A stretch of DNA of 64,000 bases from a virus. The DNA lies in IMG/VR virus record IMGVR_UViG_3300028827_000129, positions 62,001 to 126,000 of that record, one strand, 5' to 3'. Shown piece by piece: positions 9,381 to 22,091 of this stretch; within the stretch, counting starts at the first letter, position 1, and each line of letters begins with the position of its first letter. A program made the translations under genes and the position numbers. The notes beneath the pieces were generated by a model, which worked only from the letters and a program-made list of their open reading frames with translations, was not told the DNA's origin and searched no databases.

Positions 9381-9411
9381 AACAGTACCTCCTTAAGTGG
9401 GTTAAAAGAGT

Positions 9412-9435
9412 GCCCCAGGGATAATTCCCTGGGGC
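9412..9435 (-). promoter_or_regulatory. Leader/intercistronic hairpin, 10-bp stem
   Basis: GCCCCAGGGA paired with TCCCTGGGGC, loop TAAT. It lies between the DHH-like gene and the Shine-Dalgarno of the 9111-9380 gene. It is almost the same stem as 9075-9099, so this may be a duplicated intercistronic element. Confidence 0.6.
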
Positions 9436-9465
9436 GTTAGGACTTTAGGTGAATACCTCTAAGGA

Positions 9466-10416
9466 TTAGTTACCTTCCCCCATGGGGCATTCACCGCTAG
9501 CGATGACCTCCTGGCAGTAAGGCGCATCGTTCCCGTATGTGCAAATGGCGATACGGTGATACTTGCACGTCTTCCCGCCCGCGAAGCCACGCTCCGGGTC
9601 GCCGTAGGAATCACGGAGCGGCCCGACAACGTAGCCATCAAGGAAGGCCTTGATGTGGTCGGGGCTCCCGGCCTGGCAGACCGTGCGGCCGTCCTGGAGG
9701 GTAGAAACGAAACAAACCCCCTCACGAGCCGCAGCCTCCGGCAACTCCGGAACGTGAATGTCCAGGAAGTTGGCGTAGCTAAGTACTTTGCCATCGAGAT
9801 CTTCCCGGTCTTCCGGATCAAAATAATGAACCAGAATCTTCCGAGACATTCTGATGGCGTCACGAGCCGCTTCCACGTCCCGAAGGATCTCCTCCTCCGA
9901 ACGGCCCTGGAACTTCGCCCTGGAACTGATGCGCCAGCGCATCAGTTCGTCGGGGTCCACCCCAGGACACTTCCCGCGATAAGCAGCGGCCAGACAGTGG
10001 TCCGCTGCCGCAACGAGCTTCAGATTCTCATGAAACTCGTTGCACCTCGGGTAGAGGAGCTTCAGAACCTGCCCCAGGGACGAGGCTTCCCAATACTTCT
10101 TGGGATCCTTCCCGTACCCAGGGTCCCCAGGCCGGTGGTGGTCGAGGAGCTTGCTGTCGTTGAGGCTAGCTGCCTCGCCAACAAACTCACACTCCACCCG
10201 AACGATCTGGGTCGTCGGGTCCTTTACGATCTCCGGGATCGTAGCCTCCGCCTTGTAAGCCTCGAAAGGCTTCACTCGGCAGAGGGTTTCGGCATCGCCA
10301 CAATTGCGAACGGCCGCGTAAGCCACCGGGATTCGGTGTGCTCGCAGCAGCTCTTCGATGGCTGCCATTTCGGGGTCAGGCGCCCCCAGAATGAAGAAGA
10401 GGGTGTTAGTACCCAT
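9466..10416 (-). CDS. DHH-superfamily phosphoesterase-like protein
   Basis: A 316-residue product with LLDHHRPGDPGYG (DHH at 92-94), ASSLGQ (111-116) and AAADH (136-140). The order of a DHH triad, a small-residue SLGQ helix and a later Asp-His resembles the metal-binding motifs of DHH-family phosphoesterases (RecJ, NrnA, GdpP types). Known relatives cleave phosphodiesters in single-stranded DNA, nanoRNA or cyclic dinucleotides; which substrate applies is not evident. A C-terminal Cys-rich part (CKYH, CTYG, CQEV, CPMG) is additional. AGAAGGAGG precedes the ATG. A 298-residue frame on the other strand is a shadow. Confidence 0.55.
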   Translation of the reverse strand: MGTNTLFFILGAPDPEMAAIEELLRAHRIPVAYAAVRNCGDAETLCRVKPFEAYKAEATIPEIVKDPTTQIVRVECEFVGEAASLNDSKLLDHHRPGDPGYGKDPKKYWEASSLGQVLKLLYPRCNEFHENLKLVAAADHCLAAAYRGKCPGVDPDELMRWRISSRAKFQGRSEEEILRDVEAARDAIRMSRKILVHYFDPEDREDLDGKVLSYANFLDIHVPELPEAAAREGVCFVSTLQDGRTVCQAGSPDHIKAFLDGYVVGPLRDSYGDPERGFAGGKTCKYHRIAICTYGNDAPYCQEVIASGECPMGEGN

Positions 10417-10448
10417 ATGTACCTCCTTCTCGTGTGTGTTTTAGCCCC

Positions 10449-10685
10449 TTAGAGGGCCAGAGACCGAATTTCGGTCTCGGTGACTTTGCCACCCAAAACG
10501 GAGACAATCTCCTGGATGGCGAGGAGCCTTTCGCTCTGAGTAGGCACCAACTCCTTGAGAAGGTACCTGTAGAACTCAGAGTCTTTGCCGCTAAACCAAG
10601 CGGCCTTTATCGCCAATTTGGCGTTCATACTCTCAACACAGTCTGTATCAAGAGTATTGATGGCGTTAAGCAACTTGTCAGCCAT
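10449..10685 (-). CDS. Small helical protein, paralogue of 14149-14487
   Basis: The start at 10685 (MADKLLNAINTLD) is the most plausible because the longer frame begins inside a leader hairpin, although the Shine-Dalgarno is weak. The pattern LxxLxTLDxD, then AIKAAWFSGKDSEFYRYLL, then SERLLAIQEIV matches the 112-residue protein at 14149-14487 along most of its length (TLDPD, AYCGGDIRRFKVLL, GERYCALRRLV). Both are therefore one phage-specific family. The function is unknown. It lies just downstream of a strong terminator, so it may have a separate promoter. Confidence 0.6.
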   Translation of the reverse strand: MADKLLNAINTLDTDCVESMNAKLAIKAAWFSGKDSEFYRYLLKELVPTQSERLLAIQEIVSVLGGKVTETEIRSLAL

Positions 10686-10711
10686 GTTTGTATTAACCGT
10701 TACTCTTAAGG

Positions 10712-10727
10712 GCGTACCTGAGTACGC
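10712..10727 (-). promoter_or_regulatory. Leader hairpin GCGTAC/GTACGC
   Basis: A 6-bp perfect stem with loop CTGA upstream of the 10449-10685 start and directly after the terminator T-run. It adds to the repeated hairpin-before-gene pattern in the leftward region. Confidence 0.45.
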
Positions 10728-10765
10728 AAAAAACAACGGCTACGACAAGAATGTCGTAGCCGTTG
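10728..10765 (-). terminator. Strong intrinsic terminator, 14-bp stem
   Basis: CAACGGCTACGACA pairs with TGTCGTAGCCGTTG (loop AGAA on the + strand), followed on the minus strand by six T. It terminates the leftward transcript carrying the two paralogous membrane-anchored genes at 10788-11462. Confidence 0.9.
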
Positions 10766-10787
10766 CAGCCCTTAAGACTTTCGAGAA

Positions 10788-11099
10788 TTATCTGCACTGA
10801 ATCTGGATTTCGACTGCATCCTCGCCAATATGACTGAGGAGGGTTTCGAAATCCTTATCCCCAGGCTTAATGACGAAGCCGGCAATCGTCTGCCAGCTGA
10901 CGTTAACCTTCTTTAGAAGGTCTCTGCTTGCCTGAACACCAATGACTTTACCGTTGTCCTTGCAACGGATTATGACGTTCTGCCCCGTCGTATAAAGCAT
11001 GACTTTGTGGGAACGAACCCACAGGGCAGAACCGATTGCCGCCGTGCCAATGGCAACGATGGCGACTTTTTTGATAACATTCACAATCTTCTTACTCAT
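10788..11099 (-). CDS. Membrane-anchored protein, paralogue of 11190-11462
   Basis: The start at 11099 (MSKKIVNVIKK) follows AAGGAGGACATT. The 103-residue product has one N-terminal membrane anchor (KKVAIVAIGTAAIGSALWV) and a soluble domain that aligns with the next gene upstream: VIIRCKDNGKVIGVQ against VIFRCEKGGEIVGIQ, DLLKK against ELLKK, and EIQIQC against EIRVNC. Two conserved Cys may form a disulfide. Function unknown. The duplication suggests selection for dosage or for a hetero-oligomer. Confidence 0.65.
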   Translation of the reverse strand: MSKKIVNVIKKVAIVAIGTAAIGSALWVRSHKVMLYTTGQNVIIRCKDNGKVIGVQASRDLLKKVNVSWQTIAGFVIKPGDKDFETLLSHIGEDAVEIQIQCR

Positions 11100-11116
11100 A
11101 ATGTCCTCCTTAAATC

Positions 11117-11133
11117 GGCGTACCTTATACGCC
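11117..11133 (-). promoter_or_regulatory. Leader hairpin GGCGTA/TACGCC
   Basis: A 6-bp stem with loop CCTTA about seven bases upstream of the AAGGAGG of the 10788-11099 gene. A second stem, AGCTGAAC/GTTCAGCT, lies just upstream of it (about 11141-11162). Confidence 0.5.
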
Positions 11134-11189
11134 ATTATTAGCTGAACTTAGATGTTCAGCTCTTTAGGGTTTTTGGAGATGTTTGTGGG

Positions 11190-11462
11190 TTATTTACAAT
11201 TAACCCTGATCTCCATAACGTCGTCTCCGACGTTTTTGACGAGGGTCGTGAACACCTCGTCTTCCGGCCGGATGATCAGTCCAAGGTAGGACTTCACTCC
11301 GGTCTTTTTGAGGAGTTCAGAGTCGGGCTGAATCCCGACAATTTCTCCTCCCTTTTCGCACCGAAAGATAACGGTGCGGTCGCTGGCGTAGAAGTCGAAC
11401 TTCCACGTCACGTACACCGAAATGGCGAGAAAAAGTGTCAGAACAACCAGAAACCTTTTCAT
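11190..11462 (-). CDS. Membrane-anchored protein, paralogue of 10788-11099
   Basis: A 90-residue product with an N-terminal signal/anchor (MKRFLVVLTLFLAISVYVTW) and a soluble domain homologous to its downstream neighbour, including paired Cys at the start and end of the domain. TAAGGAGGACACAG precedes the ATG. The anchor suggests the domain faces the periplasm or exterior. No family recognised. It forms a two-gene unit that ends at the 10728-10765 terminator. Confidence 0.65.
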   Translation of the reverse strand: MKRFLVVLTLFLAISVYVTWKFDFYASDRTVIFRCEKGGEIVGIQPDSELLKKTGVKSYLGLIIRPEDEVFTTLVKNVGDDVMEIRVNCK

Positions 11463-11480
11463 CTGTGTCCTCCTTAGTTT

Positions 11481-11516
11481 ACCCTTTAAAAGGGTTGTTT
11501 GTCCTTTAATAAGGAC
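11481..11516 (-). promoter_or_regulatory. Two leader hairpins before 90-residue gene
   Basis: ACCCTT/AAGGGT (11481-11495) and GTCCTT-TAAT-AAGGAC (11501-11516) stand one after another upstream of the AAGGAGG of the 11190-11462 gene. Confidence 0.5.
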
Positions 11517-11524
11517 TTTCTTTA

Positions 11525-11566
11525 GTCTTTTACGACTCCTCCTTAGAGGAGGTAGTCGTAAAAGAC
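11525..11566 (-). other. Long hairpin overlapping a stop codon
   Basis: GTCTTTTACGACT pairs with AGTCGTAAAAGAC, extended by CCTCC/GGAGG past a single bulged base. The 3' half includes the last codons and the stop of the 11543-12325 gene. There is no T-run after it on the minus strand, so it looks more like an mRNA-end or processing hairpin than an intrinsic terminator. Confidence 0.6.
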
Positions 11567-12325
11567 GAAGTAGGGCAGCTTGTCAAGTCGCCTCTTTCCC
11601 CCATCGGCGTACCCGACGATGGGGTATTCCGCCTCCTGGGCGTGGCCACCAAAGTATTCCCTGGTGACCAGGTGCCCAGACCAGGTATTATCCCCGTCAT
11701 ACCTGATCCGGAGGCGGAAGAGCTCCTCGTGCTGCGGCTTGTACAGCCGCTTTGCAATGAGCTCGACCTCCTCCCATTTCTTTTCCCCCTCCTCGTCGGA
11801 GAGGTTCCCTCCGAGGATGCCCTCCAGGATCTCTTCGATGAGACCCTTGACCCGGGCCATCGCCTCGGGAGTGTCCCACTCCCCTTCAGCGATGCCCAGC
11901 GAGGGCACCTCATCGAGGGAGATGACGTCACTCCCGCAGTCACGCGGGGTGACGTCCCCGAACCTCTCGACCTCGATGAGGTCGGGTTCCTCCCTCTTGT
12001 AGAGGAACTCTTTTTTGGGGTGGTCCTGGCGGAAGATCCGCTGGACCTCCCTGTCGGAGGAGACGAGGATCTCCCAGTCCTCGTCCCTGGGGTCAATAAT
12101 GACCGCCCTTCCGAGGATGCGGGAGATGGCCCTAACGGCCTTGATCTCCTCCTCCTTTCCAACCCGGAAGTCGAAAACGACCGGGTTGTGAGGGCTATCC
12201 TCGCCGAAGTACTCGGCGAGGTACCCCTCCGCCTCTTGAATGCCGAAGAGCTCATAGAGCTCCTCGGCCTTTGCCCGACTAACATGTCGGGACGCCTCGT
12301 GGATCGCCATTTCAAACTTTTCCAT
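11543..12325 (-). CDS. Hypothetical 260-residue protein from GC-rich block
   Basis: The start at 12325 (MEKFEMAIHEAS) follows AAAGGAGGATAGCC. The protein is acidic and mostly helical with an alpha/beta middle (RAVIIDPRDEDWEILVSSD). No catalytic motif recognised. Codons are strongly GC-ending, unlike the AT-rich genes at 0-8 kb, which also opens a 238-residue shadow frame on the opposite strand. It is flanked by hairpins at 11525-11566 and 12351-12365. Confidence 0.65.
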   Translation of the reverse strand: MEKFEMAIHEASRHVSRAKAEELYELFGIQEAEGYLAEYFGEDSPHNPVVFDFRVGKEEEIKAVRAISRILGRAVIIDPRDEDWEILVSSDREVQRIFRQDHPKKEFLYKREEPDLIEVERFGDVTPRDCGSDVISLDEVPSLGIAEGEWDTPEAMARVKGLIEEILEGILGGNLSDEEGEKKWEEVELIAKRLYKPQHEELFRLRIRYDGDNTWSGHLVTREYFGGHAQEAEYPIVGYADGGKRRLDKLPYFVFYDYLL

Positions 12326-12350
12326 GGCTATCCTCCTTTCCCTTTGTTTT

Positions 12351-12387
12351 GCCGGTGAAACCGGCGTCTTTAGGCCTTGTAGAGGCC
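12351..12387 (-). promoter_or_regulatory. Two leader hairpins before 260-residue gene
   Basis: GCCGGT-GAA-ACCGGC (12351-12365) and GGCCT/AGGCC (12373-12387) lie between the 51-residue gene and the Shine-Dalgarno of the 11543-12325 gene. The second overlaps the end of the upstream coding region. Confidence 0.5.
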
Positions 12388-12525
12388 CTTTACCCGCCAA
12401 ATGCGGGTATTGATCCTCTTAATGAGGATCTTTTCCCCCTTCTGACGGGGGTCATGGGAGGCCGTAGCCTCCCCCTTTTCGCGGGAGATCCACCTCCCGC
12501 CAATACGACAGGACCGGGCCTTCAT
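12370..12525 (-). CDS. 51-residue basic protein
   Basis: Its ATG at 12525 shares one base with the stop of the upstream gene (TAATG) and is preceded by GGGAGG. The product is highly basic (MKARSCRIGGRWISREKG to EKILIKRINTRIWRVKG) with a strand-like C-terminal half. It is probably a nucleic-acid-binding small protein; no family recognised. The tight coupling to the 60-residue gene supports it. Confidence 0.55.
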   Translation of the reverse strand: MKARSCRIGGRWISREKGEATASHDPRQKGEKILIKRINTRIWRVKGLYKA

Positions 12526-12707
12526 TAGAAGCCCTCCCGGTCCTTTTCGCCCTGAAGAATCAGGGCGGTGAGGTCGTGGATGTTGGGGCCGCGGTCCCCC
12601 TTCATCCACATCTCGTACTGGGAAATCCAGTACTTCCTTTCGCCGCTCTTGAAGCGGTCCTTTCCGTACTCGCTGAGTACGGTTTTGAGAAATCTCTTTT
12701 TCGTCAT
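12525..12707 (-). CDS. 60-residue hypothetical protein
   Basis: AAGGAGAGAGAAG precedes the ATG. The product (MTKKRFLKTVLSEYGKDRF to HDLTALILQGEKDREGF) is charged and helical with an aromatic middle (KYWISQYEMW). No family recognised. It ends in the TAATG overlap with the next gene. A 5-bp hairpin (12737-12750) lies upstream of its ribosome binding site. Confidence 0.6.
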   Translation of the reverse strand: MTKKRFLKTVLSEYGKDRFKSGERKYWISQYEMWMKGDRGPNIHDLTALILQGEKDREGF

Positions 12708-12736
12708 CTTCTCTCTCCTTTCCTTCCTTTCCTTTT

Positions 12737-12750
12737 CCCGCTCTAGCGGG
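12737..12750 (-). promoter_or_regulatory. Leader hairpin CCCGC/GCGGG
   Basis: A 5-bp GC stem with loop TCTA that overlaps the stop codon of the 12743-12898 gene and precedes a purine-rich leader with AAGGAG for the 12525-12707 gene. Confidence 0.45.
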
Positions 12751-12898
12751 TGCTGTTGGTCAGAGTGACCATGTTCTGACCAACCTTTGCCCAGTCACTT
12801 TCAAACTGGGCTTTGGCGGCGTCGAACAGGCGACATCCGCCGTAAATCATGACAACCATCGCCACGGCGATGGCGATGGCCGTCTTCTTCACAGTCAT
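12743..12898 (-). CDS. 51-residue putative lipoprotein
   Basis: ATG at 12898, stop TAG at 12743-12745. The N-terminus is a signal peptide (MTVKKTAIAIAVAMVVMIY) ending in a lipobox-like YGGC, so Cys22 would be lipidated after cleavage. The mature part is about 30 residues. Its size and design resemble outer-membrane spanin subunits (Rz1-type), but the Pro-rich character of Rz1 is missing. The Shine-Dalgarno is weak (GAAGAAG). The spanin role is a guess. Confidence 0.5.
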   Translation of the reverse strand: MTVKKTAIAIAVAMVVMIYGGCRLFDAAKAQFESDWAKVGQNMVTLTNSTR

Positions 12899-12937
12899 CT
12901 TCTTCTTCGTGGTCTTCTTGATCGTCTTCTTTGTGGT

Positions 12938-13882
12938 CTACTTCTTCGCCGTGGTCTTCTTGGCCTTCTTCGCGGCCTTGAAGGCCGCGGCCATCGGGCC
13001 GCGGCCCTTAGCCGCGATGGCCCCGGCCGGTTTGGCCGGGGCCTTTTTGGCCATGACCCAGGCCACGGCCTCGACCACGAGCCGAGGCAACGGCTCGTGG
13101 CCGGAGAGGGCCTTCCTGGCCCCCTCCAAGGCCCTGACGTCGTGCCGCCAGAGGCGGCCGACGCCAAGGCCCTTCATGGCCTGGCGCTGGGCCTCCTTGG
13201 AGGCCCGGCGGGTTTCCTGCAGCCGGGCCTCCTTCTTCTTGAGGGAGGCCTCCTCCTCCAGGAGGCCCTCCATGGCCTCCTGGAGGTCCTCAAGGAGACC
13301 CAGGGCATCCGCCCCGGCCTCCCCGGCCTCCCGGATCTCGGCGATGGCCTTCCAGCCCTCGCCGAGGAGCCGGCGGATGTACCGCCGCCGGCGGCTGACC
13401 TCCTTCAGCCGCTTTCCGGCGACGTAACCGCGCCAGTAGGCGCGGTCCACCGACTCAAACCACGTCGCCGGCCTTTCGGCCAGCGACGTGATGTCAATGA
13501 GGGCCTTCTGGGTCTTCCTGGCCCAGAAGGCCTTCTCCTCGCCCCTCTTGAGGGCGAGGAGAAGGGCCCTCTCCTCCCGGTTAAGGGAGGAGAGGGCCTC
13601 CCTGAAGGCCTTCTCGCCCTTCTTGATGGCCGCCTCAAGGGCGGCCTCCTCCTCAGCGGACCGCTGAGGAGGAACGACCTTCTCCCCCTCCTCCTTCATC
13701 CGCACCTTCTCGGTACGGATAAAAGACTTCGGCCGCGGCTTGTAGGCCTCGGCCTTCTTGGCCTCGGCCTTGGCCTTCCTGGCCGAGGCCTCGGCTTTGC
13801 GGGCCTCGGCCCTCCTGGCCGAGGCCTCTTCCTTTGCCTGCTCCAGGAGCAGGCGCACATCGTAGAGGTCCATGGTCTTCAT
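12938..13882 (-). CDS. Ala/Lys/Glu-rich coiled-coil protein with histone-H1-like tail
   Basis: A 314-residue product with AAGGAGGAGCC before the ATG. Residues about 10-50 are a long A/K/E/R helix, the middle is helical with LLALKRGEEKAF and RAYWRGYVAGKRL, and the last 35 residues are Ala/Lys/Pro-rich (KKAPAKPAG to KKAKKTTAKK), like bacterial histone-H1-type tails. DNA condensation or nucleoid binding is possible but inferred from composition alone. It is extremely GC-rich, and a 270-residue antisense frame is a by-product of that. Its ATG overlaps the stop of a 42-residue gene upstream. Confidence 0.65.
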   Translation of the reverse strand: MKTMDLYDVRLLLEQAKEEASARRAEARKAEASARKAKAEAKKAEAYKPRPKSFIRTEKVRMKEEGEKVVPPQRSAEEEAALEAAIKKGEKAFREALSSLNREERALLLALKRGEEKAFWARKTQKALIDITSLAERPATWFESVDRAYWRGYVAGKRLKEVSRRRRYIRRLLGEGWKAIAEIREAGEAGADALGLLEDLQEAMEGLLEEEASLKKKEARLQETRRASKEAQRQAMKGLGVGRLWRHDVRALEGARKALSGHEPLPRLVVEAVAWVMAKKAPAKPAGAIAAKGRGPMAAAFKAAKKAKKTTAKK

Positions 13883-14007
13883 GGCTCCTCCTTAAGCCCT
13901 ATCACGTAGCCAGGCAACGTCAAAGACGCCGTCCATGGCTTACGTTTCCCAGCGGTCGGGCTAAGCCGCTGGGCTCTTTCGGGCCTTATCGGCCCTTTTT
14001 CTGGCAT
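13879..14007 (-). CDS. Possible 42-residue protein coupled to next gene
   Basis: ATG at 14007 and stop TGA overlapping the next ATG as ATGA. The product is Pro/Arg/Lys-rich (MPEKGPIRPERAQRL to LKEEP). There is only a weak Shine-Dalgarno. Part of it covers two GC hairpins (GGGCC/GGCCC and CCCAGCGG/CCGCTGGG), so it may instead be a structured leader. The exact ATGA overlap is the main support. Confidence 0.35.
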   Translation of the reverse strand: MPEKGPIRPERAQRLSPTAGKRKPWTASLTLPGYVIGLKEEP

Positions 14008-14019
14008 CGTCTCAAGGAC

Positions 14020-14128
14020 GTGCCAAAGAATCCCTCCTACAAAAGCAGAAGAGATTCTTTGGCACCCCGAATCACTTCAGGGATGCCGTGTGGGGGCGGG
14101 CCGTACAGCATCGGGGCGGCCCGCCCCC
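14020..14128 (-). other. Two long inverted repeats after 112-residue gene
   Basis: GTGCCAAAGAATC pairs with GATTCTTTGGCAC (14020-14032 with 14053-14065, 13 bp, 20-base loop). GGGGGCGGGCC pairs with GGCCCGCCCCC (14092-14102 with 14118-14128, 11 bp, 15-base loop). Both lie past the stop of the 14149-14487 gene on the leftward transcript and lack a T-run. The larger loops distinguish them from the compact leader hairpins. Confidence 0.7.
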
Positions 14129-14148
14129 GGAGGTCCTCCGGTACCTGG

Positions 14149-14487
14149 CTATGCAGCCAGATACCGAAGGATCCGATCATCGTCGTCCTGGCAGCCCACC
14201 AGGACAACGAGTCGCCTGAGAGCGCAATAGCGCTCTCCAGACAACTGCAGATGCTCCCGAAGGAGCACCTTGAACCTCCTGATGTCGCCGCCGCAGTATG
14301 CGGCGGCCCGGAGGGCCATCAGTTCCTCCGGGCTCCTGGCCATGTCCGGATCCAGGGTTGCGAGGCCCTGGAGGACCGCCAAAACCATCTCCTCGAAGGA
14401 GACGACCACCTTCTCCTTCTGCGCCTCGGCCTTCTTGGCCGCCCTCCTGGCGGCCTTTTTCAGTTTCTTCTTTTCACGCTTTTTCAT
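14149..14487 (-). CDS. Helical protein, paralogue of 10449-10685
   Basis: A 112-residue product with AAAGGAGAGAG before the ATG. A very basic N-terminal 27 residues (MKKREKKKLKKAARRAAKKA) precedes the shared helical domain with TLDPD, AAAYCGGDIRRFKVLL and SGERYCALRRLVVLVG, aligned to the 78-residue protein at 10449-10685. The extra basic extension suggests nucleic-acid contact by this copy. Function unknown. It is the first gene of the leftward GC-rich unit, and the hairpin-dense region lies upstream. Confidence 0.65.
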   Translation of the reverse strand: MKKREKKKLKKAARRAAKKAEAQKEKVVVSFEEMVLAVLQGLATLDPDMARSPEELMALRAAAYCGGDIRRFKVLLREHLQLSGERYCALRRLVVLVGCQDDDDRILRYLAA

Positions 14488-14519
14488 GACGGTTCTCTCT
14501 CCTTTCTGGGCCTTTTTAT

Positions 14520-15060
14520 GACCTGCCCAGGTCTGATTATGGGGGTAAAACCCCCTCTATATACCCGATTGCTCGGGCATATAGAGGGGGCCTCTGCCAG
14601 AGCCAGAGGCCACATACGGTGGGTGCCTAGGCATACTAGGATATGCCCACTATGCCCCATCATGGGGCGTGGCATGGTCTCTGGCAGAGGCCCACCAGCC
14701 CAGGGATCGATGGACATCCACTCCCTGGGCATGGGGCGGGATATTTATCGCTACGCGCCTCCTTCTCCAGACACATACTCACCTCTAATCATGGCTCGTT
14801 AGAGCCATTGGGCTTTCGTGCCTATGGAGATTTTTCCGCCACAGGCGCGTGCCACCACCCGGGGATGCAGATGCCTGCAGAGCCCCGGGCTGCCAGGTAG
14901 CAGCTCGGTGGACTTGTACGCGATGCACGTGGCATCACTGGGGCGCTGGCAGTCCCCTCCTCCAGGAGCTGGGGTTACGATGGGTGGGGTAGAGAGGCTG
15001 GAGAACCTCTCTGAGACCCCCCGGGCTCGTAACTGCCCTTTAGCTCCCTTTGGAGCCTCA
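14520..15060. other. Gene-free, GC-rich, hairpin-dense region
   Basis: No convincing gene. Stems include a 12-bp plus 5-bp hairpin (14551-14590), a 15-bp pair 14588-14602 with 14679-14693 enclosing smaller stems, GCCCAGGGA/TCCCTGGGC (14698-14730), ATGGCTC/GAGCCAT (about 14791-14808), CCCGGGG/CCCCGGG (about 14858-14888) with an inner TGCAG/CTGCA, GATGC/GCATC (about 14922-14936), and AGAGAGG/CCTCTCT (about 14991-15011). Some pairings are mutually exclusive. It lies exactly where leftward and rightward transcription diverge, so it may be a leader RNA, an origin or a control region. Confidence 0.6.
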
Positions 15061-18441: not shown

Positions 18442-18737
18442 TATTTATTTGCTCCTGCTCCGCGTGTTGAACCTGATAAACTAACTACATTACCTCCTGC
18501 GTTATTCTCTTTTTTACTTTCATTGCCCGGCTCTTTATCGTTCTTTTCGCCGTGGATAATCTTTTGTACATCATCTGTGCTCAATACACTCTTCTCTACA
18601 AGGACCTCTAAAAATCTAGTGATAATCTCTTCGTAAGCCCCAAAAGCACGTTGCATCCCCATGATCGCTTGATAAAGAACGCCTAAGTCTTTAACAATAT
18701 CAGCTTTGCGAATCTTGTTCTCTTTTATCTTGTACAT
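18441..18737 (-). CDS. Hypothetical helical protein, 98 residues
   Basis: AAAGGAGGACTGAA precedes the ATG. A helical domain (KADIVKDLGVLYQAIMGMQRAF then ITRFLEVLVEKSVLSTDDVQKII) is followed by a disordered Asn/Lys/Glu tail. The second helix pair resembles that of the 20008-20310 protein (EGLAQLLVNKGIVNEGEIREVI), so the two may be distant paralogues. No known family. Confidence 0.65.
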   Translation of the reverse strand: MYKIKENKIRKADIVKDLGVLYQAIMGMQRAFGAYEEIITRFLEVLVEKSVLSTDDVQKIIHGEKNDKEPGNESKKENNAGGNVVSLSGSTRGAGANK

Positions 18738-18749
18738 TTCAGTCCTCCT

Positions 18750-19325
18750 TTAGATGATCTCATGAATAATGCCGCGATTTAAAGCTTCCCATGCAGTGAA
18801 CCAAAATTCTTTGCCCGACTTAATATAACTTAATTCCTCGTTAGAAAAATAATCACCGAAAAAATCATGAAGCCGCGCTTCTGTATTTGTTCTCAAAATA
18901 TCTATACATGACGTATGATGACTGATTTGATCTTGCCCCAGCGAAGTAGAAGCCTCATGTAACATGAAAGTAGAATACTTATAAGCCTTACGTGTCTTAC
19001 CAAGCATAAGAATATAAAGCCCGGCAGATAAACAATTGCCGCTTGCAACAGTTGTAAAATTATCAATTTCTCCTACTAGACCCTCTAAGAGGTCTAGTGC
19101 TGCTAAATCACCACCTGATGTCGTAATGTTTAAAATAACTTCATCATCACTATGTGCATCTTGTAAGATCTTCGTAACGTCAAGTATATTCTTTCTGTTT
19201 ACCTCGCCGCTAAAGAAAACTTCGTACCTCGTTTTCAGCGGCGTAACCTTTCCGAAAACTTCCTCGCCCCCCGCTTCCTCGCGGGGGTCTTCATCTTCTT
19301 CCAACCTAATACGGGGTAAAGTCAT
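18750..19325 (-). CDS. ClpP-like serine protease
   Basis: A 191-residue product near ClpP length. ITTSGGD (67-73) matches the ClpP oxyanion-strand region, GNCLSAG (96-102) carries the nucleophile Ser100, and MLHEAS (121-126) the catalytic His123. FWFTAWEALNRGII matches the C-terminal ClpP motif, but Glu173 stands where the catalytic Asp is usual. It could be a peptidase working with a host or phage unfoldase, or a head-processing enzyme, though the head block has its own protease. CAGGAGG precedes the ATG. It leads the operon from the promoter at 19358-19386. Confidence 0.85.
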   Translation of the reverse strand: MTLPRIRLEEDEDPREEAGGEEVFGKVTPLKTRYEVFFSGEVNRKNILDVTKILQDAHSDDEVILNITTSGGDLAALDLLEGLVGEIDNFTTVASGNCLSAGLYILMLGKTRKAYKYSTFMLHEASTSLGQDQISHHTSCIDILRTNTEARLHDFFGDYFSNEELSYIKSGKEFWFTAWEALNRGIIHEII

Positions 19326-19357
19326 ATAAAAACCTCCTGCCTTATGGGATATGTTTT

Positions 19358-19386
19358 ATTATACCACAGCGCAGCGCCATAAACAA
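19358..19386 (-). promoter_or_regulatory. Sigma70-type promoter for ClpP operon
   Basis: On the minus strand TTGTTT (19386-19381) and TATAAT (19363-19358) are separated by 17 bases. Transcription would begin near 19351 and read the ClpP-like gene leftwards to the terminator at 16721-16746. A 9-bp inverted repeat (19368-19376 with 19390-19398) overlaps the promoter and could be an operator. Confidence 0.7.
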
Positions 19387-19428
19387 AGCCGCTGCGCTTT
19401 CTATATTGGCTATTACCACAAAAATTAG

Positions 19429-19450
19429 CATATCGTCTTTGGACGATATG
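19429..19450. other. 9-bp hairpin in gene-free region
   Basis: CATATCGTC-TTTG-GACGATATG. On the minus strand it is followed by CTAATTTTTG, so it could terminate an upstream leftward RNA before the ClpP promoter. Confidence 0.5.
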
Positions 19451-19480
19451 TTTAGTAAGCAATAACCGTGCTAAAATTTT

Positions 19481-19514
19481 TTTTCGGCTTTTTCCGAAAA
19501 AAAACTTACACTAT
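19481..19514 (+). promoter_or_regulatory. Conserved block shared with 3591-3625
   Basis: TTTTCGGC, a T-run, CCGA8, then CTTACACTAT repeats the block at 3591-3625 almost base for base. As at the first locus it directly precedes a nested-stem element. It may be a phage-specific promoter (TTCGGC, 18 bases, TACACT) or, read on the minus strand, a CGG/CCG hairpin with T-runs. Confidence 0.5.
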
Positions 19515-19628
19515 ACGTTGACAAACGTAAAGGCGAGGAAAAGAACGGATAAAGCTTACGGTTAATATAAAACATGGTAATGTTCTTATATTTAAGCTTT
19601 AGACGTTCTTTGACGAGACTTTACGTTT
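19515..19628 (+). ncRNA. Nested-stem structured RNA element, copy 2
   Basis: Four stems nest: AAACGTAAAG/CTTTACGTTT (19523-19532 with 19619-19628), AAGAACG/CGTTCTT (19541-19547 with 19604-19610), AAAGCTTA/TAAGCTTT (19551-19558 with 19593-19600), and ATATAAAACAT/ATGTT-TTATAT (19565-19575 with 19580-19591, one bulged base). The overall layout, including AAGAACG placed before the inner stem, parallels 3631-3735 although the stem sequences differ. No gene lies here. This supports a structured RNA rather than a conserved protein or protein-binding site. Confidence 0.52.
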
Positions 19629-19650
19629 ATTAAAAATAATAAAACCATAA

Positions 19651-19931
19651 ATATCTCTCCCTTAAGGGGAGAGATATAAAACATAACCGTAAATATATAT
19701 ATAAAGCATAAATATATATATAAAACACACATAGGGATACGTTACTTAATATACCTTTAAGGTATATTAAGTAACGTATCCCGTATATAAAACATAAAAC
19801 ATAAAGGCCATAAGATATTCTTTAGAATATCTTATGGCCGTACCTAGGATATAAGATACTCTTTAATAGAGTATCTTATATCCGTAAAACATAAAAAACA
19901 TAGTAATAGAAAGTCGTCTTAAAAAGACGAC
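19651..19931. repeat. Array of perfect hairpins on A-rich linkers
   Basis: In order: an 11-bp stem (19651-19661 with 19667-19677), a 22-bp stem (19734-19755 with 19761-19782), a 15-bp stem (19806-19820 with 19825-19839), a 16-bp stem (19847-19862 with 19868-19883) and an 8-bp stem (19913-19920 with 19924-19931). All are perfect, with 3-6 base loops mostly of TTAA/TTTAA type, and unrelated stem sequences. Linkers repeat CCGTA, TATAAAACATAAA and AAATATATATATA. No gene. It may be a processed small-RNA precursor or an origin. Confidence 0.8.
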
Positions 19932-19942
19932 GATAAAAAGAG

Positions 19943-19970
19943 AAAAAAATAAGGCCCCCTGCCGGGGGCC
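19943..19970 (-). terminator. Intrinsic terminator
   Basis: GGCCCCC-TGCC-GGGGGCC (19953-19970), followed on the minus strand by TTATTTTTTT. It lies about 40 bases past the stop of the 20008-20310 gene and ends that leftward transcript. Confidence 0.85.
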
Positions 19971-20007
19971 ATGTAATTTTTCGTGGTAAACGGTAATATA
20001 AAGAACT

Positions 20008-20310
20008 TTAGTTCTTAACGGGCTTTTCATCGTCCCGCGCCGCGCTTTCTGATTTTACCTTCTCTACCATCTTGTCGATGACTTCTCTGATCTCACCTTC
20101 ATTAACGATTCCCTTGTTAACCAGTAACTGGGCTAAACCCTCGATCATAATGGCACAAGAGAGGAAGGTATGATTGTTTGTTTCTAGAATTGCTTTGTGT
20201 AGATCCTTGCCAAAGTCAGAGAGAATTGAATAGATCTCTCTTGTGATTCTTTGTAGGTCTTCTTGAGTGGGTGCTGTGTGAGAATTATTATCTTTTACTT
20301 GTTCCGCCAT
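20008..20310 (-). CDS. Hypothetical helical protein, 100 residues
   Basis: AGGAGGATCAA precedes the ATG. Three or four amphipathic helices (ITREIYSILSDFGKDLHKAI and FLSCAIMIEGLAQLLVNKGI) are followed by a charged tail. The second half resembles the 18441-18737 protein. No known family. It overlaps the 58-residue gene upstream by 16 bases, so the two form a short leftward unit that ends at 19943-19970. Confidence 0.65.
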   Translation of the reverse strand: MAEQVKDNNSHTAPTQEDLQRITREIYSILSDFGKDLHKAILETNNHTFLSCAIMIEGLAQLLVNKGIVNEGEIREVIDKMVEKVKSESAARDDEKPVKN

Positions 20311-20471
20311 TTGATCCTCCTGCTTGACTTGAAGCTTTTAATGCCTTCTTTGATGTGAGCTACTTTTATGAGCCCCATAAACGATTTGTCATCACACGTC
20401 TTTTCTAGCTGAGCTAGAAAGTTTTCATATTCCATCAAAAGATTTTTAAGTTTACTGTATGAGTTAGCCAT
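20295..20471 (-). CDS. 58-residue helical basic protein
   Basis: The start at 20471 (MANSYSKLKNLLMEYENFL) follows AAGGAGGTACTT. Helix-rich with a basic C-terminus (IKSFKSSRRIKWRNK). No family recognised. First gene of a two-gene leftward unit. TATACTATATTG about 40 bases upstream may serve as a -10 region, but a -35 is not evident. Confidence 0.6.
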   Translation of the reverse strand: MANSYSKLKNLLMEYENFLAQLEKTCDDKSFMGLIKVAHIKEGIKSFKSSRRIKWRNK

Positions 20472-20525
20472 AAGTACCTCCTTGAATGTATTTGGTCTAG
20501 CAATATAGTATAGCCATTGATTTTC

Positions 20526-20555
20526 TTGGATTTTAACGTTGTGGTATGGTATAAT
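20526..20555 (+). promoter_or_regulatory. Sigma70-type promoter for rightward genes
   Basis: TTGGAT (20526-20531), 18 bases, then a consensus TATAAT (20550-20555). Transcription would start near 20562, 35 bases before the 20597 start codon. It lies in a divergent region facing the leftward 20295-20471 gene. Confidence 0.75.
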
Positions 20556-20596
20556 ACAAGTAGGAAGTAATATTTTTGCCATGCGGAGGTAGGCAT

Positions 20597-21088
20597 ATGA
20601 AAGACATCGATGCATATTATGACGATATGATCGAAGACGACTCTGTCGACTACAGAGTCGAGCTCAGAAAAGACAAGAACATAAGCGTTAAAACAATCAC
20701 CGGAACAACATTCAATAACTCATGTAAACGCCAAATCGACGGAGTGTGTAAGAATCATAAGCAAATTCCAATGCGCATAAACGATAAAATCGTGCATATA
20801 GACCAAGGAATAGCCAATATCGTATACGCCATGAATAACATCGACGGCATTACTACCAAGTATAGTTGCGAAGGAGATGATGCAGCTGGACAAAAGCCCT
20901 ACATTCTGTTTTCTGCGAAGTCTATAAACGCCATCAAAACCGTATGTAATCTATTTCGAGACAATGCACAAGAGGTAGATATAGTTTTAGAATGCCTTAG
21001 AGCCTCACAGAGCAGTTTTTCTAAAGAACTTGACCTAGCGGTCATATTTCATAAGAAATCGTCTCTACGGGGCTCTAAGATGCCTTAG
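20597..21088 (+). CDS. Hypothetical protein with GITTxxSCEG motif
   Basis: The start at 20597 (MKDIDAYYDDM) has GGAGGTAGGCAT upstream. The 163-residue product has a disordered acidic N-terminus and a C-terminal domain with IDQGIANIVYAMNNIDGITTKYSCEGDD followed by PYILFSAK. A helix leading to GIxTxxSCxG and then a YI-F strand is a recurrent phage domain that I have seen only as uncharacterised. First gene of the rightward transcript. Function unknown. Confidence 0.65.
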   Translation: MKDIDAYYDDMIEDDSVDYRVELRKDKNISVKTITGTTFNNSCKRQIDGVCKNHKQIPMRINDKIVHIDQGIANIVYAMNNIDGITTKYSCEGDDAAGQKPYILFSAKSINAIKTVCNLFRDNAQEVDIVLECLRASQSSFSKELDLAVIFHKKSSLRGSKMP

Positions 21089-21112
21089 AATCGAAAATGG
21101 AGGTACATGGAC

Positions 21113-21250
21113 ATGGTAAATTCTTATAGCTGCCCTAAATGTGGAAAAGAAGACATTGTACATCTATGGTTTCTGGACCAACAAGGAGAAGTTTGGCTAC
21201 AATGTTCTGTCTGCGAGCACGTGTGGTATCTTATTCAGAAAAATTGTTGA
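21113..21250 (+). CDS. 45-residue zinc-ribbon protein
   Basis: ATG at 21113 with GGAGG eight bases upstream; an in-frame ATG six bases earlier is too close to the Shine-Dalgarno. The product has CPKC and, 20 residues on, CSVC, a zinc ribbon with an aromatic-rich middle (HLWFLDQQGEVWLQ). This resembles transcription-factor-type or terminase-associated zinc ribbons in form only. Stop TGA at 21248-21250. Confidence 0.65.
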   Translation: MVNSYSCPKCGKEDIVHLWFLDQQGEVWLQCSVCEHVWYLIQKNC

Positions 21251-21263: not shown

Positions 21264-22091
21264 ATGAGCAACGAAAAACCAAACAAGAAACAAATCGAAG
21301 ATTTGTTGGGCGAAGACATGAAAGATGTAAAGTTTTATAGTCCTGAAGGTTATGGCAGAGCAAAGAAGGCGCTTGTAACGCTTAGTGGGCTAGCTTTGAC
21401 TCAAGATGGAAAGCTAACAAAGCACGATTGGTTTGACTTTCTTGATGTTAAGCTAGACAATTATGACGATATCATTTTGTCAGCTGATGATGCTAGACGA
21501 TTACAACATTATTTCAAGAAGTTGTCTACCGGCACTGTTTCTACGATACCCATGTATTGCGGAGGAGAAAAACATTGCCCACAAGCTGACTTTTGTGAGT
21601 TTGTAAAGTTAGGTAAAATACCTTTGGGTAGAAGATGTTTAGTGGAAGTTGAGTTAGTTGATTTTTGGACCAAACGGTATCTTGAAGAATATGATGTCGA
21701 TGTAAATGACCAGACGGATGTTTATATGATTGGTGAGCTAGCTGAGCTTAATGTCTTAGAAATGCGGATTAATAACATTTTAGCCAAATTTGAAAACTCA
21801 GAATTATCTGAAGTTACAATAGCTGGTCAGGACCAAGATGGCAGACCGATAGAAACGGTAAAAATTAGCCGTTTTTGGGAAATTAAAGAGTCGATTAAAA
21901 ACCGCAGACTTAAAATACTTGAGGCATTAGTAGGAACAAGAAAAGATAAGTATAAGAGGGATGCTGCACTAAAGCGGATGGACAGTAGTGATGGAAAGAC
22001 TTCGCTTGCAGAATTAAAACGTACTATCGATGAATATTTAAAGCAGCAAGAAATTGTAATAGACCAAGCAGAAGATATTACAAGGAAGTAA
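21264..22091 (+). CDS. Putative terminase small subunit or packaging-linked protein
   Basis: A 275-residue product with a helical N-terminus, a Cys cluster (MYCGGEKHCPQADFCEF and GRRCLVE, roughly 96-130) and a long charged C-terminal helix region (IKNRRLKILEALVG to EYLKQQEIVIDQ). The position upstream of the terminase large subunit and the helical oligomer-like C-terminus would suit a small terminase, but four genes intervene and no clear helix-turn-helix is visible, so this is tentative. No Shine-Dalgarno; a TATAAT lies eight bases before the ATG. Confidence 0.4.
   Translation: MSNEKPNKKQIEDLLGEDMKDVKFYSPEGYGRAKKALVTLSGLALTQDGKLTKHDWFDFLDVKLDNYDDIILSADDARRLQHYFKKLSTGTVSTIPMYCGGEKHCPQADFCEFVKLGKIPLGRRCLVEVELVDFWTKRYLEEYDVDVNDQTDVYMIGELAELNVLEMRINNILAKFENSELSEVTIAGQDQDGRPIETVKISRFWEIKESIKNRRLKILEALVGTRKDKYKRDAALKRMDSSDGKTSLAELKRTIDEYLKQQEIVIDQAEDITRK

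Follow-up and report, generated by a model that had tools for sequence, protein, structure and literature searches.

Why does the complete 170-kb genome of a tailed phage carry nearly ten DNA hairpins packed into one non-coding stretch? The stretch lies in a window of 64,000 nucleotides, bases 62001–126000 of a 170,083-base virus record, and coordinates below are those of the window unless a genome position or another record is named. Both ends of the record share 55 identical bases, and the genome was therefore assembled as closed, with a length of about 170,028 bp. A first-pass annotation of the letters alone had singled out five hairpins and offered three guesses as to their role: a multi-RNA precursor, a decoy for double-stranded-RNA or cruciform sensors, or a replication origin. 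The analysis described here points to a putative control site, probably for the copying or packaging of phage DNA.

Hairpins and linkers of the spacer

The hairpins exist and greatly exceed what chance would produce. With stems of 8 bp or longer counted, the 281 bp between 19651 and 19931 contain six perfect stems (8–24 bp, 85 arm bp in total). Under the same threshold, 2000 dinucleotide shuffles of the segment gave a mean of 0.19 perfect stems and a maximum of 2, and the longest arm in any shuffle was 12 bp against the 24 bp observed. In a hairpin screen of 1.84 Mb, comprising the phage's own genome and its distant relatives, this array ranks first. All five hairpins originally listed (19651–19677, 19734–19782, 19806–19839, 19847–19883 and 19913–19931) are present, and the sixth stem is that of an AT-tract hairpin. 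The five stems are perfect, as had been stated, with zero mismatches and zero wobble (G-U) pairs, and those of 16–24 bp consist mostly of A/T base pairs; the upper length of 22 bp given earlier has to be corrected, since the longest stem, taken as far as its 1-nt centre, measures 24 bp. The limits of 19651–19931 likewise enclose hairpins as described but are too narrow, as further hairpins occur on either side within the same spacer (19429–19970). This structured non-coding spacer of ∼540 bp is almost wholly folded, and the RNA fold of the interval between the ClpP-like gene and a 100-aa gene has a z of about −20. The features of the region are as follows.

19325–18750, minus strand: ClpP-like gene, left of the spacer
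19386–19358, minus strand: predicted leftward sigma-70-type promoter upstream of the ClpP-like gene, from sequence reading and an extended −10 scan; −35 TTGTTT at 19386–19381, 17-nt spacer, extended −10 TGGTATAAT at 19366–19358
19368–19398: operator-like 9-bp inverted repeat AGCGCAGCG-N13-CGCTGCGCT, which overlaps the predicted ClpP-like gene promoter; read from the sequence and paired in the fold
19429–19450: perfect 9-bp hairpin on the outer side of the cluster
19477–19504: 11-bp A/T-rich hairpin
19518–19633 (116 nt): long imperfect inverted repeat with 41-nt arms, 78% complementary, fold z −7.9; its loop contains the linker motif ATATAAAACAT
19651–19677: hairpin 1, 11 bp, loop 5
19678–19692, plus strand: linker AAAACATAACCGTAA
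19693–19722: two AT tracts that pair into an AT hairpin of 10 bp
19734–19782: hairpin 2, perfect stem of 24 bp around a 1-nt centre
19783–19805, plus strand: linker GTATATAAAACATAAAACATAAA
19806–19839: hairpin 3, 16 bp with a 2-nt centre, tandem relative of hairpin 4
19847–19883: hairpin 4, 16 bp, loop 5, with three compensated differences from hairpin 3
19884–19912, plus strand: linker GTAAAACATAAAAAACATAGTAATAGAAA
19913–19931: hairpin 5, 8 bp, loop 3
19970–19953, minus strand: intrinsic-terminator-like hairpin GGCCCCCGGCAGGGGGCC-TTATTTTTTT, closing a small minus-strand operon
20471–20008, minus strand: two small genes of 58 and 100 aa with no assigned function, located after the array and before the right-arm promoter; the 100-aa gene is 20310–20008
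20547–20555, plus strand: predicted rightward extended −10 TGGTATAAT at the start of the virion-gene arm, from the extended −10 scan

The re-use of linkers that had been noticed is borne out by counts over the whole genome. Four of the five copies of TAAAACATAA in the 170 kb lie inside the array, and this linker is array-specific, with hardly any occurrence outside the spacer; two AT tracts and the motif CCGTA also recur. A CRISPR array and REP or BIME elements, both already set apart from this locus in the first-pass annotation, are indeed rejected, as the linkers are 7–29 nt long with no regular period, and a DNA search of the phage's own genome returns the array alone, with no stem dispersed elsewhere. 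The description of the array as a constant linker with variable hairpins holds within the array with one qualification, which applies equally to the statement that the stems are unrelated: most of them differ from one another, but hairpins 3 and 4 are kin. These two are tandem copies with 85% identity over 20 nt, and what distinguishes their stems are positions 3, 4 and 13, with all three differences compensated on the opposite arm. The pair shows a way in which a stem can change and yet stay perfect.

Position between the gene arms

The array lies at 81.65–81.97 kb of the genome, where the left and right gene arms diverge, and the spacer is bounded by outward-facing promoter-like sequences at 19366 (minus strand) and 20547 (plus strand). 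Among the three roles initially guessed, a replication-type DNA site fits this location best, and the arm divergence, the AT-richness and the GC skew all agree with it: the cumulative skew forms a single V with its broad minimum at 76–82 kb, inside which the array falls, and its maximum at about 169 kb. However, the skew appears to follow the coding strand, with plus-strand genes inside the left arm (G000 77.6–78.7 kb) having plus-type skew, and the minimum is thus no proof of an origin. There are also no DnaA boxes near the array, although the phage may use a different initiator.

Terminase identities of 31–37% to ME3, MTATph1 and KLEB27-3, together with synteny, indicate that the phage belongs near these three, and its virion-module gene order is common to dozens of metagenomic contigs. 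ME3 genes are annotated as homologous to those of Bacillus phage 0305phi8-36, to which the carrier of the array is distantly related. In 0305phi8-36, the member of the lineage that has been studied, most genes point towards the middle of the genome (PMC2147016). Its DNA is linear and non-permuted and carries a terminal repeat of 6479 bp (PMC4113786). On a circularised map, the point of divergence therefore corresponds to the physical ends. In position the array matches a genome end of this lineage, as it lies at an arm divergence upstream of the virion genes. The virion module starts with a 275-aa gene (21264–22091) that has matches in 35 of the fetched loci, and divergent gene arms are found upstream of its homologue in many relatives. 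The KLEB27-3 and ME3 records begin and end at the arm divergence, although their depositors may have picked those ends.

Breaks in assembled contigs fall in the same region. Contig IMGVR_UViG_3300003542_000139 derives from the same virus (100% identical over the 18,663 bases compared). Its first base corresponds to 19760, which is 2 nt beyond the midpoint of the 24-bp hairpin; this start can be either a genuine end or the result of a break in assembly at the palindrome. Among the relative contigs of at least 20 kb that carry the 275-aa gene (n = 26, among L098–L126), 16 stop in the 5 kb upstream of this gene, where 2.7 would be expected, and none in the 5 kb downstream, a hot spot that could also stem from strain-variable sequence.

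Searches for close relatives with the ClpP-like protein, the terminase, DNA polymerase III and exact DNA patterns returned only the identical second contig, and the next relatives, at about 40% protein identity, have no array. It is absent as well from every relative sampled through terminase and junction-side gene alignments, all of them distant; bacterial genomes contributed one distant MAG contig. The relatives screened and the DNA-pattern searches yielded no similar hairpin array in other phages, and the cluster is apparently lineage-specific. At the same arm junction, the distant relative L123 has a 751-bp AT-rich gap (L123:3560–4310) that is rich in palindromes and packed with TTAACTTCAG-like repeats of either orientation. 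When 29 junction gaps were compared with 11 other gaps, no excess of structure was seen (median z −2.7 versus −2.4), and hairpins are thus not a conserved part of the junction.

Two further features of the genome were recorded alongside these comparisons. The DNA polymerase III alpha gene (G000:5093–8690, minus strand) is represented by two overlapping open reading frames, with the PHP part apart from the finger part. A GC-rich island at window positions 9400–15000 reaches 70% GC against about 35% for the genome and is dense in GC-rich palindromes; it is largely coding by codon-phase composition, encodes K/A/E-rich proteins without Pfam or PHROG matches, and may have been imported recently or reflect a chimeric assembly.

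A DNA-level site and its alternatives

Our preferred reading, to which we assign a probability of roughly 0.4, is that the cluster is a DNA-level cis element for the start of replication or for end or concatemer processing, with stems that are made and kept perfect by template switching. All three components, namely action at the level of DNA, function in origin or end processing, and template switching, are ones that we infer. The AT-rich, hairpin-rich spacer would open, or would extrude hairpins on single strands or as cruciforms, and phage or host proteins could use it to initiate replication outwards through the two arms; alternatively, they could use it to process the concatemer junction into the packaged genome ends. 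The data fit a replication start and end processing alike and do not separate the two. Template switching at stalled forks would create the stems and keep them perfect. During DNA replication this process can generate perfect stems and compensated changes in single events (PMC8794818), which would explain why the stems are perfect yet differ from one another on a re-used linker, as well as the compensated changes in the sister hairpins, and such an account would need no function at the level of RNA.

Template switching also underlies the rival that survives best, which we consider doubtful: that the array is a functionless mutational by-product, in which short palindromes are made and kept perfect by this process in a replication-stressed non-coding spacer without selection. 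That single events can give rise to perfect stems and compensated changes (PMC8794818) serves this explanation equally, and the stems, perfect and variable, are conserved in no sampled relative. The cluster is nonetheless the extreme of 1.84 Mb, and its linker is re-used four times. Long perfect palindromes, moreover, are usually unstable and tend to be deleted, which counts further against accumulation as a by-product.

It is unlikely that the array is a transcription barrier, that is, a tandem series of terminator-like hairpins on the minus strand insulating the small operon (20471–20008) from the ClpP-like operon. A scan of 18700–21200 did find 14 terminator-like sites where 1.7 would be expected, several of them on the minus strand within the spacer, a strong terminator opens the series, and the linkers are T-rich when read on the minus strand. 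A GC-rich stem with a proper U tract is nevertheless found only at this first hairpin (19970–19953); the combination is partial in hairpins 1, 3 and 5 and lacking in hairpins 2 and 4, which are followed by TATGTGTG and TAGGTACG, respectively. Stems of 16–24 bp made mostly of A/T base pairs would be atypical of terminators, and a single good terminator would suffice.

A structured non-coding RNA or multi-hairpin precursor on the minus strand, cut for instance by RNase III, is rather improbable. Its attractions are the very strong folding energy (z about −20) and the 24-bp stem, a length that would suit RNase III. The transcription signals around the spacer are set against it, as a strong terminator precedes the spacer, the next promoter follows rather than precedes it, and neither the sigma-70 scan of 18700–21200 nor the extended −10 scan of 19300–20660 gave a convincing promoter pointing into it. 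Zero sigma-70-like matches fall in the hairpin linkers, and promoter-like matches in the region are near the shuffle expectation; the linker may be a promoter for a phage-specific polymerase, and a role as a general promoter of the phage is ruled out by the near restriction of the motif to the spacer. Rfam covariance models gave no match to the spacer at the gathering score, which leaves no known RNA family assigned, and those below threshold were mostly unrelated miRNA or sRNA models. The perfect stems without G-U pairs are a further point against an RNA product. The guess of a multi-RNA precursor is accordingly not supported, and both an RNA and a terminator series are less supported because of the terminator before the spacer, the promoter after it and the several hairpins without U tracts.

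Distinctly improbable, in our estimate, is a further proposal that builds on rapid stem turnover: an array of units, each a variable perfect hairpin plus a constant GTA-(TAT)AAAACATAAA linker, in which template switching would renew the stems while the linker and format are kept, the whole serving as a replication or end-processing site. A decoy or counter-defence element titrating a double-stranded-RNA or cruciform sensor, suggested by the format alone (several mostly unrelated hairpins), is very improbable, given that no test run yielded a positive sign and no similar array was found in other phages.

Further observations concern other places in the genome. The GC-rich, hairpin-dense stretch at 12.5–14.6 kb is ruled out as a giant RNA, being largely coding by codon-phase composition. 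On the minus strand of G000:45000–55100, seven tRNA-type predictions, in all but one of which the anticodon is clear, form a cluster with an RNA ligase gene. A reverse transcriptase of 520 aa (G000:27649–29211, minus strand; L008:7649–9211) has a 240-aa N-terminal extension and a C-terminal half that matches retron- and defence-type enzymes (PADLOC RT_II-A, E = 4e-28; NCBIfam retron St85, E = 2e-28, below the curated cut-off), and several hairpins just upstream of it, at about L008 9190–9310, constitute a candidate retron RNA.

For most large uncultivated phages, little is known of where the genome ends and origins lie, and a compact hairpin cluster at an arm junction provides a specific place for the inspection of read data. 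The sister hairpins with their three compensated changes offer, in addition, a natural test case for template switching as a builder of palindromes in a phage.

Comparison with known systems

The PeSL cassettes of T4-type phages (promoter plus stem-loop) and the TATA-plus-inverted-repeat motifs of HGTV-1, as described in papers that cite the PeSLs (PMC4503421, PMC3950731), resemble the array in that variable stem-loops are interspersed with a constant AT-rich segment. Measured against those same descriptions, the constant segment of the array contains no recognisable promoter and is confined essentially to the spacer, and its units are not scattered among the genes. Assignment to the PeSL cassettes was rejected, the constant part not being a sigma-70-like promoter and the linker being nearly limited to the spacer.

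With N15-type protelomerase target sites the array shares a perfect palindrome of nearly 50 bp, surrounding inverted repeats and a contig break at the centre. Unlike those sites, its palindrome has an odd centre and no protelomerase gene was found here; a protelomerase target or hairpin telomere was rejected on the absence of PF16684 from the genome. AT-rich, inverted-repeat-rich replication origins resemble the array in their AT tracts, repeated short motifs, hairpins and position at a skew minimum, and differ from it in that the array has no nearby DnaA boxes, identified initiator or regular iterons.

The remaining comparison is with the terminal junction of 0305phi8-36, made through the published genome description. 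A difference is that the record ends of KLEB27-3 and ME3, which are of the same lineage, carry no hairpin array. The likeness lies in descent and position: the phage appears to share a distant lineage with 0305phi8-36, linked through terminase, capsid and gene order with ME3, KLEB27-3 and MTATph1, and on the circularised map the gene arms diverge at this junction.
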